Source: an uncultured Oscillospiraceae bacterium
GTDB lineage: Bacteria > Bacillota > Clostridia > Oscillospirales > Oscillospiraceae
Assembly (NCBI GenBank): GCA_947625285.1
Contig: CANQNS010000002.1
Coordinates: 62,001 to 126,000 of the forward strand
Length of the DNA: 64,000 nucleotides
Direction: 5' to 3'
Position 1 is the first letter of the stretch. Every line of letters begins with the position of its first letter. The notes under the pieces were generated by a model. The model was given only the letters and a program-made list of their open reading frames with translations, had not been told where the DNA came from and ran no database searches. Shown piece after piece: positions 20,649-29,493 of the stretch. Position numbers and translations under genes: made by a program.

Positions 20649-21008
20649 ATGAAAGAGGACAGAGGGGTAGACTACAAAGAGATGTATCTTTGCATAATGA
20701 TCATCGCAAGGCGAAAACGAATGTTTTCGCCGCCAAACGACACGTTTGGTGGCAAATGATCCATGGATCATTTGCGCGATGCTCATTGTAATGAATATCT
20801 AGCAAAACAGCTACGCTGTTTTGCTGAGCCGCAAAGCGGCTCGGCGCAACGCCTTACGGCGTTTCGCTATCAGATAATCATTATGGTGCGGGCGACAGAG
20901 AAAGCGCTTGATATACTGATCCAGGCGCAGCGGGAATGTGAGGAGCTATATATCCGCGGCGGCGAGCAGGGGAAAGTCATCGAGCTGCCAGAACACGAGC
21001 GGAAATGA
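20649..21008 (+). pseudogene. Small gene interrupted by the 191-bp multi-hairpin element
   Basis: 5' part MKEDRGVDYKEMYLC and 3' part MVRATEKALDILIQAQRECEELYIRGGEQGKVIELPEHERK lie in the same frame on either side of the element; RBS gaaggagg upstream. Confidence 0.65.
20694..20884 (+). mobile_element. 191-bp multi-hairpin (MITE/REP-like) element, copy 1
   Basis: Ends ATAATGATCATC / GATAATCATTAT (11/12 inverted); differs from copy 2 at about 5 positions; series of consecutive hairpins. Confidence 0.8.
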
Positions 21009-22124: not shown

Positions 22125-22245
22125 GTTGGTTTTCACCTCCTGTAATGAAAAATGTCCTTGTCCAAAGAGACAAAGACACATGAAAACCGTATCGTCATGG
22201 TGTCCTCGGCAGGTCTTACGCCCGGAAAACGGGCCGCCGGCTGTC
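22125..22245 (-). ncRNA. L10 leader (ribosomal protein leader) candidate
   Basis: Leader of rplJ containing CCTGCCGAGG as typical for L10 leaders, downstream of TTGACA-17-TAACAT. Confidence 0.65.
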
Positions 22246-22347
22246 TTTGAACGGCTCATATGTTACCATATCCGCCCGGCCATGTCAAGAATGAATTTTC
22301 TTTTAATTCCGACAGGCTCCCCCTTGCGGGCGCGGGGCGTGCTTGTT

Positions 22348-22538
22348 ATAATGATCATCGCAAGGCGAAAACGAACGTTTTCGCCGCCAAACGACACGTT
22401 TGGCGGCAAATGATCCATGGATCATTTGCGCGATGCTCATTGCAATGAATATCTGGCAAAACAGCTGCGCTGTTTTGCTGAGCCGCAAAGCGGCTCGGCG
22501 CAACGCCTTACGGCGTTTCGCTATCAGATAATCATTAT
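22348..22538 (+). mobile_element. 191-bp multi-hairpin (MITE/REP-like) element, copy 2
   Basis: Same ends and length as copy 1; about 7 successive hairpins, e.g. GCAAATGATCCATGGATCATTTGC (22406-22429). Confidence 0.8.
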
Positions 22539-24884: not shown

Positions 24885-24938
24885 CTGGCTCCGACACCAC
24901 GATAGACGCTCTGTTTTGGTATCGGGACCAGCCCGACA
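24885..24938 (+). repeat. 54-bp intergenic direct repeat, copy A
   Basis: CTGGCTCCGACACCACGATAGACGCTCTGTTTTGGTATCGGGACCAGCCCGACA. Confidence 0.8.
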
Positions 24939-25142
24939 GCATTTCCGCCCGCTCGCGGCTCGCTTCGCGCCCGAAATCGCGTGGCGGAAACGCTGCCGGT
25001 TCTGGTCTTCGGACCGTCGGTGCGCCGCTCCCCTGGGGGCGCGGCCTTGGCAGTAATGGTTTGAGAGCCAGGGCCGGAAGTGTCTCTCGACCCGCATGAT
25101 GAGAAGCGAAGCGAAACCGTGCGGGCGAGAGATACTTTCGGA

Positions 25143-25196
25143 CTGGCTCCGACACCCAGTTAGACGCTCTATTTCGGTATCGGGACCAGGCCGACA
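25143..25196 (+). repeat. 54-bp intergenic direct repeat, copy B
   Basis: CTGGCTCCGACACCCAGTTAGACGCTCTATTTCGGTATCGGGACCAGGCCGACA. Confidence 0.8.
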
Positions 25197-25224
25197 CCAA
25201 AATAGAGCGGCAGGCTAAAAAACA

Positions 25225-25479: not shown

Positions 25480-26145
25480 ATGAGAGGATTGTATGGATAT
25501 GTTCGTGTTTCCAGCAGGGATCAGAATACAGATCGCCAGCAGATCGCGATGTGTGAGTATGGCGTAGCCGACGAGAACGTCTTCATTGATAAGCAATCAG
25601 GGAAAGACTTTAATCGTCCCGCCTATTGCCGACTTGTCCGAAAGTTAAAGCCGGACGACACCCTGGTCATCAAGAGCATCGACCGGCTTGGCCGGAATTA
25701 TGAGGATATTTTGGAGCAGTGGCGGCTTCTTACAAAAAAGAAGTGCGTGGAGATCGTGGTGTTGGACATGCCCCTGCTGGACACAAGGCGGGGCCGCGAC
25801 CTGACGGGGACGCTCATCGCGGACATCGTGCTGCAGCTTTTAAGCTATGTGGCCCAGACGGAGCGGGAGTTCATCCGCCAGCGGCAGGCCGAGGGGATCG
25901 CCGCGGCGAAAGCGCGAGGCGTCCGGTTCGGACGGCGGCCCATGGAGCGCCCAGCGGCGTTTGAGGAGGTCTGCCGTGACTGGGAACAGGGGCTGCTTAC
26001 GGCAAGAAAAGCAGCGGAACGCCTTGGCGTAACGCATAAGACGTTCCTGAAATGGGCATCAAAAGATGTAAATGGTGAAAAAAGTAGAGGTTTGTCCCCA
26101 GTTGAAACCATTGTAGAAGAGACCCGTGGATCGCACTCGCACTAA
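25480..26145 (+). CDS. Serine recombinase/resolvase family protein
   Basis: YGYVRVSSRDQNTDRQ, DTLVIKSIDRLGRNYEDI, C-terminal HTH. Confidence 0.93.
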   Translation: MRGLYGYVRVSSRDQNTDRQQIAMCEYGVADENVFIDKQSGKDFNRPAYCRLVRKLKPDDTLVIKSIDRLGRNYEDILEQWRLLTKKKCVEIVVLDMPLLDTRRGRDLTGTLIADIVLQLLSYVAQTEREFIRQRQAEGIAAAKARGVRFGRRPMERPAAFEEVCRDWEQGLLTARKAAERLGVTHKTFLKWASKDVNGEKSRGLSPVETIVEETRGSHSH

Positions 26146-26392: not shown

Positions 26393-27136
26393 ATGAAAGG
26401 CATTTACTGTTTCGCGGGGCACCGCGTGGAGATCGATTCCATTTTCATGCGGGTCCACGAGCTGTGCGCGCTGTACCGCTCCGACGGGCGTCCAGAATAC
26501 ACAGTGCGGACTACCTGGGACGACATCGGCTATGAACGGGAAAAGTCCGATACGGAGAGCCGTATAGAGGGGCGGGAGCCGCCCCGTCACACGGACGCGT
26601 ATCTGGAAACGCTGGCCGTCTACCGCAAGATCGCGGAGAGCCTGATAGAATACGACATCCTGCTGTTCCACGGTTCCGCCGTGGCGGTGGACGGCGCGTG
26701 TTATCTCTTCGCCGCGAAAAGCGGCACGGGTAAATCCACCCATACCCGCCTATGGCGGGAGCTGCTGGGCGAGCGGGCCGTCATGGTGAACGACGATAAA
26801 CCGCTCCTGGAGATCTCCGGCACAGGCGTCGCCGTCTGGGGGACCCCGTGGGACGGGAAGCACCATTTGAGCCGCAATATCTCCGTTCCTTTGCGGGCGA
26901 TCTGCTTTTTGGAGCAAGGGAAGGAGAATCGCATGAAGGCCATCTCCGCGAAAGAGGGGTGGCCCGCGCTCTGGCGGCAGAGCTACCGGCCGTCTGGACC
27001 GGATAAGCTGAAGCGGACGCTGGCGATGGTAGACAGTCTTTCAACGCGCGCCCGGCTTTACCGGCTGCGCTGCGCCCCGGACATCCAAGCGGCCCGCATG
27101 GCTTATGAGACCATGAGCAAAGGAGGAGCTCTATGA
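26393..27136 (+). CDS. HPr kinase/phosphorylase C-terminal-like kinase (RiPP-cluster associated)
   Basis: Walker A-like FAAKSGTGKSTHTRLW, MVNDDKPLL, WGTPWDGKHHLSRN. Confidence 0.8.
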   Translation: MKGIYCFAGHRVEIDSIFMRVHELCALYRSDGRPEYTVRTTWDDIGYEREKSDTESRIEGREPPRHTDAYLETLAVYRKIAESLIEYDILLFHGSAVAVDGACYLFAAKSGTGKSTHTRLWRELLGERAVMVNDDKPLLEISGTGVAVWGTPWDGKHHLSRNISVPLRAICFLEQGKENRMKAISAKEGWPALWRQSYRPSGPDKLKRTLAMVDSLSTRARLYRLRCAPDIQAARMAYETMSKGGAL

Positions 27137-27387
27137 AACTGAAGGACACATTTATCACTTATAACGCCGCCGGGGAGCATACCACGGTAGCGACGGAGGG
27201 CTTTTCCGGCATAATTCGCAGCAACAAGACGGCCGCGTTTATTATTGAAGCGCTGAAAGGACCCACTACTTTGGAACAGATCGTGGATGCCATGGCCGCA
27301 AAGTACGACGCGCCGCGGGATGTTCTTGAAAAGGATGTTGCGGAAACGCTGGCCCGGCTGCGCTCTATCGGGGCTATCGAGGATTGA
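27133..27387 (+). CDS. PqqD family protein (RiPP recognition element)
   Basis: 84 aa PqqD-like fold sequence; overlaps preceding stop. Confidence 0.85.
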   Translation: MKLKDTFITYNAAGEHTTVATEGFSGIIRSNKTAAFIIEALKGPTTLEQIVDAMAAKYDAPRDVLEKDVAETLARLRSIGAIED

Positions 27388-27914
27388 GCGTCCGCTTTGA
27401 GGAGGTGCTGGCCCGGGACGGGAAGCTGGTCCACACCGGCGTGGGCGACAGTATGCTGCCCATGCTGCGGCCGAAACGGGACCTGGTCATCATAGGGCGG
27501 CCGTCCGGCAGGCTGAAGCGGTACGACGTGGCGCTGTATAAGCGCGGTTCGGGCCAATATGTGCTGCACCGGGTGCTGAAGGCGCGTGGCGACGAATACG
27601 TCCTGTGCGGCGACAACCAGTGGTCGAGGGAGCGCGGCGTCACCGACCGGCAGATCATCGGTGTGCTGACCGCCTTTGTGCGGGACGGAAAAGAGATCCC
27701 GGTGACAGACCCGCGCTACCGGCTGTATGCGCATCTTTGGTGCGACCTGTTCTGGCTGCGGGCGGCGGTCCTGTGGTGCCTGACCCTATTCGGCCGGATC
27801 AAAAGAAAACTCACAAGACGCCATAACAAAACGCCTGGATCGGGCGAGCGTAGTATCTCGTCCGTTCAGAATATAGATCAAGGCATCCTGACCGAAAGGA
27901 GGAAAGAGCCATGA
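27384..27914 (+). CDS. S24/S26 (signal peptidase-like) peptidase
   Basis: Catalytic Ser motif GDSMLPMLRP; GRLKRYDVALYKR; CGDNQ; TTG start overlapping PqqD stop. Confidence 0.8.
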   Translation: MSVRFEEVLARDGKLVHTGVGDSMLPMLRPKRDLVIIGRPSGRLKRYDVALYKRGSGQYVLHRVLKARGDEYVLCGDNQWSRERGVTDRQIIGVLTAFVRDGKEIPVTDPRYRLYAHLWCDLFWLRAAVLWCLTLFGRIKRKLTRRHNKTPGSGERSISSVQNIDQGILTERRKEP

Positions 27915-28051
27915 AGGAAAAGTACACCACCCCCGAGATGGAGATCGTCGACATCGATGAGGAGGACATCATTTTCGCCAGCGAGGGATCTGGGGGCGAA
28001 GAAGAAGAAGGTCTAGGTCCGTGCAGCGTTCAGGGACCGGCAGAAAATTAA
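27911..28051 (+). CDS. Candidate RiPP precursor peptide (46 aa), absent from the ORF track
   Basis: MKEKYTTPEMEIVDIDEEDIIFASEGSGGEEEEGLGPCSVQGPAEN; ATGA overlap with upstream peptidase; RBS AGGAGG; directly precedes radical SAM genes. Confidence 0.75.
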   Translation: MKEKYTTPEMEIVDIDEEDIIFASEGSGGEEEEGLGPCSVQGPAEN

Positions 28052-28069
28052 GACAGTTATAGCCAAGGA

Positions 28070-28103
28070 GCGCTGTAAGTGAAGGTTACTTGCAGCGCCT
28101 TTT
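28070..28103 (+). terminator. Hairpin plus T-run between precursor and radical SAM genes (attenuator-like)
   Basis: GCGCTGTAAGT (28070-28080) / ACTTGCAGCGC (28088-28098), then CTTTT. Confidence 0.65.
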
Positions 28104-28134
28104 GGTCGTTTTACATTTACGAGGAGAAAATGGT

Positions 28135-29493
28135 ATGCAGCAGGTCGTCCCGCAGATCCGGCTCGTTCAGAAAATACTGGGAGAACAGAAGATAGACACG
28201 GGTCTTTCTTATCGGATCAGCGCGTACTGTATGCGCGTCGAGCAGCCCGAGGGGCTTTTGCTTTATAATACCCTGACCGGAGAGATCCTCCTGTTGACTG
28301 CCGAGGAGGCGGCAGGATTGGAGAAGATCCCCGGCCGCGTCCCCGCCGCGCTGACGGAGTTGGTCTCACGTCGATTCCTTGTGCCCGAGGAAGCGGACGA
28401 CATGGCTGTCGCGGATCTGGTGCGTCAAATAGCGGAGCGTTTTGGAAAAAAAGAGACCGCTCTGACGGCGTACAGGATCTTCACCACCATGGAATGCAAC
28501 GCCCGGTGTTTTTACTGCTACGAGAGAAGGTGGGAAAAAGACACCATGACGGAGCAGACCGCTCTGGATACGGCAAGATATATCGCGGCGCATTGCGGCG
28601 GCAAGTCGATCCGTCTTCAGTGGTTCGGCGGCGAGCCGCTTGTGAACATAAAAGCCATCGATATCATCACGGACTTCCTGCAACGGCAGGGCTTGAAATA
28701 CCGCTCCACCATGACGAGCAACGGATATCTTTTTGACCGTGCGCTCGTACAGCGGGCAAAAAGCCTATGGAAGCTAAAGAAGGTGCAGATCACGCTGGAC
28801 GGCACGGAGGAGGTCTATAACAAACGCAAAGCGTATGTCGATCCGAAGGGCAGCCCCTATCAGCGCGTTCTCCGTAATATAGATCTTTTGCTGGAGGCAG
28901 GCATCTCGGTCAATGTTCGTCTGAATATGGATGAGAACAACGAGCGGGATCTTTATGAATTGGTGGATATATTGGCGGAGCGGTTTGGAAAAAGGCCGGG
29001 ATTTGGCGTCCATTTGTTGGATATTCGGGGAGATCAGGATGGGATCGGATCACCAAGCGGTGTGGAAGAAACGCGCCGGGTCTACGAGGAAAAGCTCCGG
29101 TCATTGTGGGCGTATGTGGAGAAAAGGGGAATACTGGCCCGTGTGTCACTGAATCGGAGAGTCACCGTCAATTGCTGCAGGGCGGACAACGACAGTTGTA
29201 CTACTGTGACGCCGGACGGGAGGCTGGGCCGGTGTGATGGCTGTGAGGATGACGGCATTTGGGGGAGTATTTACTCCGAGGATGCGGATGAGGAAGCGCT
29301 CCGGCAGTGGCGGGAGCGCTTGCCGGCGGAAGAAGCATGCAGGACCTGCGTCATCTATCCGCAATGCATCCGGCTTAAAAAATGCATGGGCTCTGAGAAC
29401 TGTTTCTCATTAGCGCGGCTGTATCGCGAGAATAGGCTTCGCAGGGCTGTTCTCGCGGCCTACGGGGATTGGAAGACCGCCGGCCGGCCTTGA
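28135..29493 (+). CDS. Radical SAM/SPASM peptide maturase 1
   Basis: CxxxCxxC (ECNARCFYCYE), LQWFGGEPL, SPASM-like Cys-rich C-terminus. Confidence 0.92.
   Translation: MQQVVPQIRLVQKILGEQKIDTGLSYRISAYCMRVEQPEGLLLYNTLTGEILLLTAEEAAGLEKIPGRVPAALTELVSRRFLVPEEADDMAVADLVRQIAERFGKKETALTAYRIFTTMECNARCFYCYERRWEKDTMTEQTALDTARYIAAHCGGKSIRLQWFGGEPLVNIKAIDIITDFLQRQGLKYRSTMTSNGYLFDRALVQRAKSLWKLKKVQITLDGTEEVYNKRKAYVDPKGSPYQRVLRNIDLLLEAGISVNVRLNMDENNERDLYELVDILAERFGKRPGFGVHLLDIRGDQDGIGSPSGVEETRRVYEEKLRSLWAYVEKRGILARVSLNRRVTVNCCRADNDSCTTVTPDGRLGRCDGCEDDGIWGSIYSEDADEEALRQWRERLPAEEACRTCVIYPQCIRLKKCMGSENCFSLARLYRENRLRRAVLAAYGDWKTAGRP

Follow-up and report, generated by a model that had tools for sequence, protein, structure and literature searches.

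A probable non-autonomous, MITE-like element family with a conserved double-cloverleaf fold and a preference for promoter -10 boxes in gut Clostridia

Bacterial genomes carry several families of short repeats to which the element described here can be compared. It resembles Correia, RUP and Nezha elements in being short and gene-less, with terminal inverted repeats, a 2-bp duplication and many intergenic copies, and Correia ends also bear promoter-like sequence. MITEs derived from IS630 duplicate TA, and the IS30, ISL2 and IS427 groups make duplications of 2-3 bp. Clostridial serine transposons of the Tn4451 type have repeats that are short and imperfect, together with a shared dinucleotide; these and IS607 are like the present element in having the same core dinucleotide at both ends and relaxed targets. 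Helitrons share with it an AT target and single-strand hairpins. Enzymes of the IS200/IS605 group read one side of the target, and quasi-palindromes are known to mutate through template switching. REPINs have paired palindromic units, compensatory changes, a mostly intergenic location and singlets beside doublets, as in our element (PMC3116915, PMC2817692). They are an earlier example of a hairpin element in which compensatory changes occur, and a clover configuration has been proposed for them also (PMC3116915).

We analyzed a stretch of 64,000 nucleotides (the window) from an uncultured Oscillospiraceae bacterium, in which an earlier note, made from the sequence alone, had marked two near-identical hairpin-rich repeats with imperfect terminal inverted repeats. 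The pair is present as described: the repeats at 20694-20884 and 22348-22538 are 191 bp each, align without gaps, differ by five substitutions and carry the terminal repeats ATAATGATCATC / GATAATCATTAT, the 21-bp element end being AATGATYATMGGATGGCGAAA. Both copies have the same orientation. Empty-site comparison places the outermost AT at either end of the 191-bp repeat in the target, outside the element, and the two copies are composed as follows.

20694..20884, + strand: copy 1, full element with AT on each side (sequence, genome-wide copy search)
20696..20787, + strand: copy 1, left cloverleaf (alignment to copy 2)
20788-20789, + strand: copy 1, inner dinucleotide GT (alignment to copy 2)
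20790..20882, + strand: copy 1, right cloverleaf (alignment to copy 2)
22324..22352, + strand: copy 2, candidate rebuilt promoter TTGCGG-N17-TATAAT (sequence and register)
22348..22538, + strand: copy 2, full element with AT on each side (sequence, genome-wide copy search)
22348..22349, + strand: copy 2, left AT, target dinucleotide (empty sites)
22350..22441, + strand: copy 2, left cloverleaf, AATGATCATCGC paired with GCGATGCTCATT around three hairpins (fold, covariation)
22442..22443, + strand: copy 2, inner dinucleotide GC between the cloverleaves (alignment)
22444..22536, + strand: copy 2, right cloverleaf, AATGAATATCTG paired with CAGATAATCATT around three hairpins (fold, covariation)
22537..22538, + strand: copy 2, right AT, target dinucleotide (empty sites)

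Copy 1 interrupts a small ORF (~20649-21008; 56 aa with the element removed), and sequences related to this region occur without the element in several species of the genus, where the alignment at the site is too gapped to give an exact empty site. Copy 2 lies within a candidate promoter, at its -10 box, and a secreted-protein gene follows downstream (start ~22620). Other features lie nearby. The minus strand at 22138-22268, upstream of rplJ/rplL, matches the Rfam ribosomal protein L10 leader at 38.2 bits (gathering 44) and is probably a genuine divergent L10 leader. An unrelated repeat was seen by eye at 24888-25210, comprising two similar stretches of ~50 bp that are ~255 bp apart (CTGGCTCCGACACC...GGTATCGGGACCAG..CGACA). 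The ORF list, read by eye, shows HPr-kinase-like, PqqD-like, signal-peptidase-like and radical SAM/SPASM-like proteins in a row at 26393-29493 (+), possibly a peptide-modification cluster.

The limits of the mobile unit were taken from carriers whose joined flanks could be compared with element-free relatives. At three loci (L002, L006 and L017) the empty site reads flank-AT-flank and the filled site flank-ATAATGA...TCATTAT-flank, and the empty site of copy 2 in a related species (G010, L398) is CTTGTT-AT-AATGGTTACAG. The empty site at L002 has no TA at the junction. These exact-AT empty sites, from independent loci, define a mobile unit of 189 bp, AATGATCATC...GATAATCATT, with AT flanking each side; of 128 sites, 121 show AT at either end. 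Such precision, with a duplicated target, is what is expected of a MITE; a 2-bp duplication, an AT-core exchange and an insertion at A^T would all leave the same sequence. At one orthologous site, two species carry the element in opposite orientations (L015 versus L019/L269), and the flank differences there are compatible with either an inversion or two insertions. A 9-bp tandem duplication (ATCACGGTG) adjoins the insertion in one of these species.

The window genome (G000; 2.06 Mb, 46 contigs) contains six full copies, five of them at 97-98% identity, and 23 of 99 sampled related genomes match the element, mostly within the same genus, so that the earlier note's refuting outcome of no further copies anywhere did not occur. 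Eight matches to a longer form of ~204 bp were found in another genus of the same family, and one weak 31-bp match among the 99 relatives was discounted as a copy. The unit measures 189 bp in the window genome and about 202 bp in rumen relatives. A scan of GTDB genomes with the core pattern gave at least 115 matching stretches, and among the matches listed almost all belong to MAGs of Oscillospiraceae, Ruminococcaceae or Clostridia from rabbit caecum and rumen; single matches on small contigs in bins labelled Rikenella and Synergistes may be binning errors. We extracted 168 full copies, and the 128 with distinct flanks are the insertion sites used for the counts given here. Viral contigs scanned with the core pattern, and PLSDB plasmids and INPHARED phages searched with the element sequence, gave no match, and carriage by phage or plasmid was dropped on these grounds. 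Membership of a known Rfam family, a second outcome that was to refute the initial proposal, did not materialize either: no family reached its gathering score across the window, and sub-threshold matches on the element were at chance level. Our literature searches retrieved no description of the family.

The element folds as RNA at -103.4 kcal/mol, compared with -55.5 +/- 4.1 in dinucleotide shuffles (z -11.6), and DNA parameters and the opposite strand give similar values (z about -11.6 to -12). The fold confirms that hairpins run over nearly the whole length and groups what had been listed as separate hairpins into two tandem cloverleaves of three hairpins each, every cloverleaf being closed by a terminal repeat that pairs with its own internal inverted copy. 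The inner dinucleotide between them is GC in 99 of 123 readable copies and AT in none. A single left cloverleaf with AT on both sides occurs at L169 and L319 (one rabbit genome and one rumen genome), and adjacent elements have one AT in common, from which we infer that two cloverleaves, once independent, make up the unit. The double unit may derive from two neighboring single cloverleaves, and a change of the inner AT to GC would let the pair move as one. The idea that the two halves descend from one ancestor in inverted form was considered and rejected, as only the outer 21 bp can be aligned at matching offsets and scores fall within or near the shuffle range. Stems are nearly fixed and hairpin loops hypervariable (e.g. 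the 3-nt loop of hairpin 4), the first hairpin is ~12 bp longer in some lineages, and some copies are shortened by deletion to 49, 66 or 81 bp. No terminator or outward promoter was seen by eye within the element.

Covariation in the stems backs the designation "structured DNA/RNA element" of the earlier note. Across 46 sequences, 98.0% of pair cells in the 76 pairs are paired, and two-sided changes affect 18 of the 76 pairs, compared with 7.1 in shuffles, exceeding every shuffle and slid register. Divergence from the consensus in ~120 sequences is 7% in paired and 24% in unpaired columns. The frequency of variants is informative as to where this constraint acts. Private changes in paired columns kept pairing in 33 cases and broke it in 53 (38% kept, with 33% expected under neutrality), whereas the share of non-consensus pair types that still pair rises from 35% of those seen once to 59% of those seen 3-5 times and 79% of those seen more than 5 times (once versus 3 or more copies, Fisher p = 2e-4; each variant counted once, without a tree, in tests designed after the data were seen). 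Since rare variants break pairs at about the neutral rate and common ones keep them, the fold appears to be needed in propagating copies and to decay in residents. This pattern speaks against a function of individual copies for the host, and against repair of resident copies through their hairpins. Among one-step wobbles, G-T outnumbers A-C by 19:9 on the strand as written for variants in at least 3 copies, compared with 23:37 for rarer ones (p = 0.01); at other thresholds p lies between 0.005 and 0.28, and significance is lost in each subgroup taken by itself, so the bias is a suggestive hint of one folded strand instead of a double-stranded cruciform.

The insertion sites have a symmetrical flank composition, with T or C at -2, T favored at -1, the AT, A favored at +1 and A or G at +2. 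The preferred core, (T/C)T-AT-A(A/G), is therefore palindromic; its best representative, TTATAA, is the commonest target hexamer (16/128 sites) and is also the core that the element ends would form if joined (CATT-AT-AATG). This core is contained in TATAAT, and promoter -10 boxes are favored as a result. In the reconstructed empty sites, AT forms positions 2-3 of an exact TATAAT in 29 of 128 cases, compared with 13 of 1024 nearby AT dinucleotides, and a -10 box with at least 5/6 matches accompanied by a -35 box with at least 4/6 at 16-18 bp is found at 25 of 128 sites and 18 of 1024 nearby ATs. Two sites, L223 and L335, have TTGACA-N17-TATAAT. The share of exact TATAAT is 22/57 for the long rumen form and 9/71 for the short form. 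The preference also holds within intergenic DNA (16/69 sites versus 110/7086 intergenic ATs); further enrichment for a -35 box among intergenic TATAAT is only suggestive (11/17 insertion sites versus 43/109, p = 0.07). Sites are intergenic in 99 of 128 cases by a simple codon-usage caller, versus 14% of random positions, and in 69 of 128 by a more permissive caller. Convergent gene pairs are under-used (5/93, p = 0.02), and orientation relative to genes is 30 versus 19 (p = 0.15) overall and 12 versus 13 at promoters. Where copies are now found may be a matter of survival as well as of targeting.

Read inward, either end gives ATAATGAT, so that a T before the cut restores TATAAT. On the left this is the case at 60 of the 128 sites, on the right at 63. 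A -10 box that has been cut by the insertion thus keeps its old -35 spacing. The candidate promoter of copy 2 is put together in this manner, with T from the host and ATAAT from the element end, and its -35 box TTGCGG is weak (3/6 match to TTGACA). Copy 1, in its small ORF, is not of this kind.

Taken as a whole, we consider that these copies belong to a non-autonomous MITE-like family that is moved in trans, favors -10 boxes and rebuilds them, and keeps its fold in propagating copies, with a probability of roughly 0.75. Movement in trans is inferred, since our search turned up neither an autonomous partner nor a fitting transposase. The unit inserts at AT in a palindromic target, best fitted by TTATAA, and ends with AT on both sides. 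A promoter entered at its -10 box would stay active, transcription would start at the edge of the element, and the element would become the folded 5' leader of a host mRNA. A single folded strand probably takes part in movement, as a substrate or an intermediate, instead of regulating the host.

The nature of the mover is where the explanations diverge. The search covered the DDE_3, DDE_Tnp_1, rve, Y1 and serine recombinase families, and the absence of a mover within it is weak evidence because MAGs lose multicopy elements at contig breaks. Of the transposases with the same termini that the earlier note proposed to look for (Y1/RAYT or DDE), none was found in this search. In the loci examined, no recognizable transposase is enclosed by end pairs 0.35-6.5 kb apart with exact or one-mismatch ends; two candidate pairs (L183 and L315) were examined as an autonomous element and set aside, as the enclosed genes are ordinary.

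An ordinary MITE with passive hairpins, served by a DDE transposase that makes a 2-bp staggered cut (IS30-like or uncatalogued), is a possible if unlikely explanation. It would account for the terminal inverted repeats, the 2-bp duplication and the symmetrical target. However, DDE_3 (PF13358, IS630-type) was found in none of seven carrier genomes and DDE_Tnp_1 in neither the window genome nor G038; rve gave two matches in the window genome and none in G038, and both appear IS3-like, one of them degraded. Passive hairpins would also leave the kept pairing of propagated variants unexplained.

Somewhat less probable is the movement of a circle by a serine recombinase through AT-core exchange, with the inner GC core inert. 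The joined ends CAGATAATCATT-AT-AATGATCATCGC resemble a crossover site, the 2-bp core is identical at both ends and at the target, core and target are palindromic, both orientations occur, and the window genome has nine serine recombinase genes. None of the nine, however, lies within an element bearing these ends or has such ends in its neighborhood. The window itself encodes a small serine recombinase at 25480-26145 (+), one of three relatives in the window genome. As a partner it was rejected for want of co-occurrence: most species of the genus have it, whether or not they carry the element, and it was not detected in G017 despite 14 element matches there.

We rate as improbable a single-strand mechanism (HUH or Helitron-like) in which excision of a strand folded into the cloverleaves is followed by its insertion between A and T, without duplication. 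Structure kept in propagating copies and the lean of common wobbles toward G-T would both fit, but the strand bias depends on threshold, both target flanks are biased, and Y1 (PF01797) was not found in the window genome despite its near-identical copies; the Y1 loci of other genomes are not flanked by element ends. A related and still more tentative proposal is that an uncharacterized enzyme inserts a folded single strand (DNA or RNA) of the double cloverleaf into -10 boxes, perhaps at the melted bubble, and that the element, whose end then rebuilds the box, secures its own transcription.

The covariation could instead be mutational, with template switching copying one hairpin arm onto the other and selection unnecessary. 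Hypervariable loops and the extended stem in some lineages are compatible with this, but correction of residents would also fix private changes, which stay uncorrected, and we find this explanation very doubtful. Least likely is a host-beneficial RNA leader or regulator spread as a repeat and folded through selection on each resident. Many copies lie just upstream of genes, would be transcribed and fold strongly on both strands, but their orientation to genes lacks significant bias, stems are broken by private changes about as often as expected under neutrality, and copies reduced to 49-81 bp by internal deletion persist.

The preferred reading of a MITE-like family moved in trans also bears on classification. 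The term "MITE/REP-like" used at the outset stands in its first half, as the copies are many, short, non-coding and bounded by terminal inverted repeats, with precise empty sites and recent bursts, and falls in its second, as Y1 was not found in the window genome. Neither the arrangement in two cloverleaves nor the targeting of promoters had been anticipated at that stage. Judged by comparison with Rfam, PLSDB, INPHARED and the literature, the family would be new, and it agrees with the definition of a MITE save for a partner, none having been found. The family is not REP/RAYT and is not IS630-derived. Like REPINs it is a hairpin doublet with compensatory changes, but REP/RAYT systems need the Y1 transposase and lack terminal repeats with a duplicated dinucleotide, whereas this element is ~190 bp with terminal repeats and AT at each end. 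It duplicates AT where IS630-derived MITEs duplicate TA, and an IS630-type transposase was not found in seven genomes. It has the identical 2-bp core at ends and target that marks serine transposons, but no serine recombinase was found linked to or co-occurring with its ends. Unlike Helitrons it has terminal inverted repeats and ends that differ from TC...CTRR, and no Rep/helicase partner was identified. What sets it apart from Correia, RUP and Nezha, and is unusual for such a family, is that its double cloverleaf is conserved and that it uses -10 boxes in register.

These results have several implications. The variant-frequency test separates selection on spread from selection on residents and can be applied to other structured repeats as well. 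That no transposase was found despite near-identical copies is a lead to an unrecognized mobilizing enzyme, and if the single-strand reading of the -10 preference is true, the element would be a promoter-homing, structure-dependent mobile element outside the known transposase families. The element abounds in gut Clostridia that are dominant and for the most part uncultured. If the main reading is true, it would enter the -10 box and yet rebuild it, invading the intergenic position that is most sensitive while doing little damage, and placing a folded leader of 190 nt on the mRNAs of its hosts.
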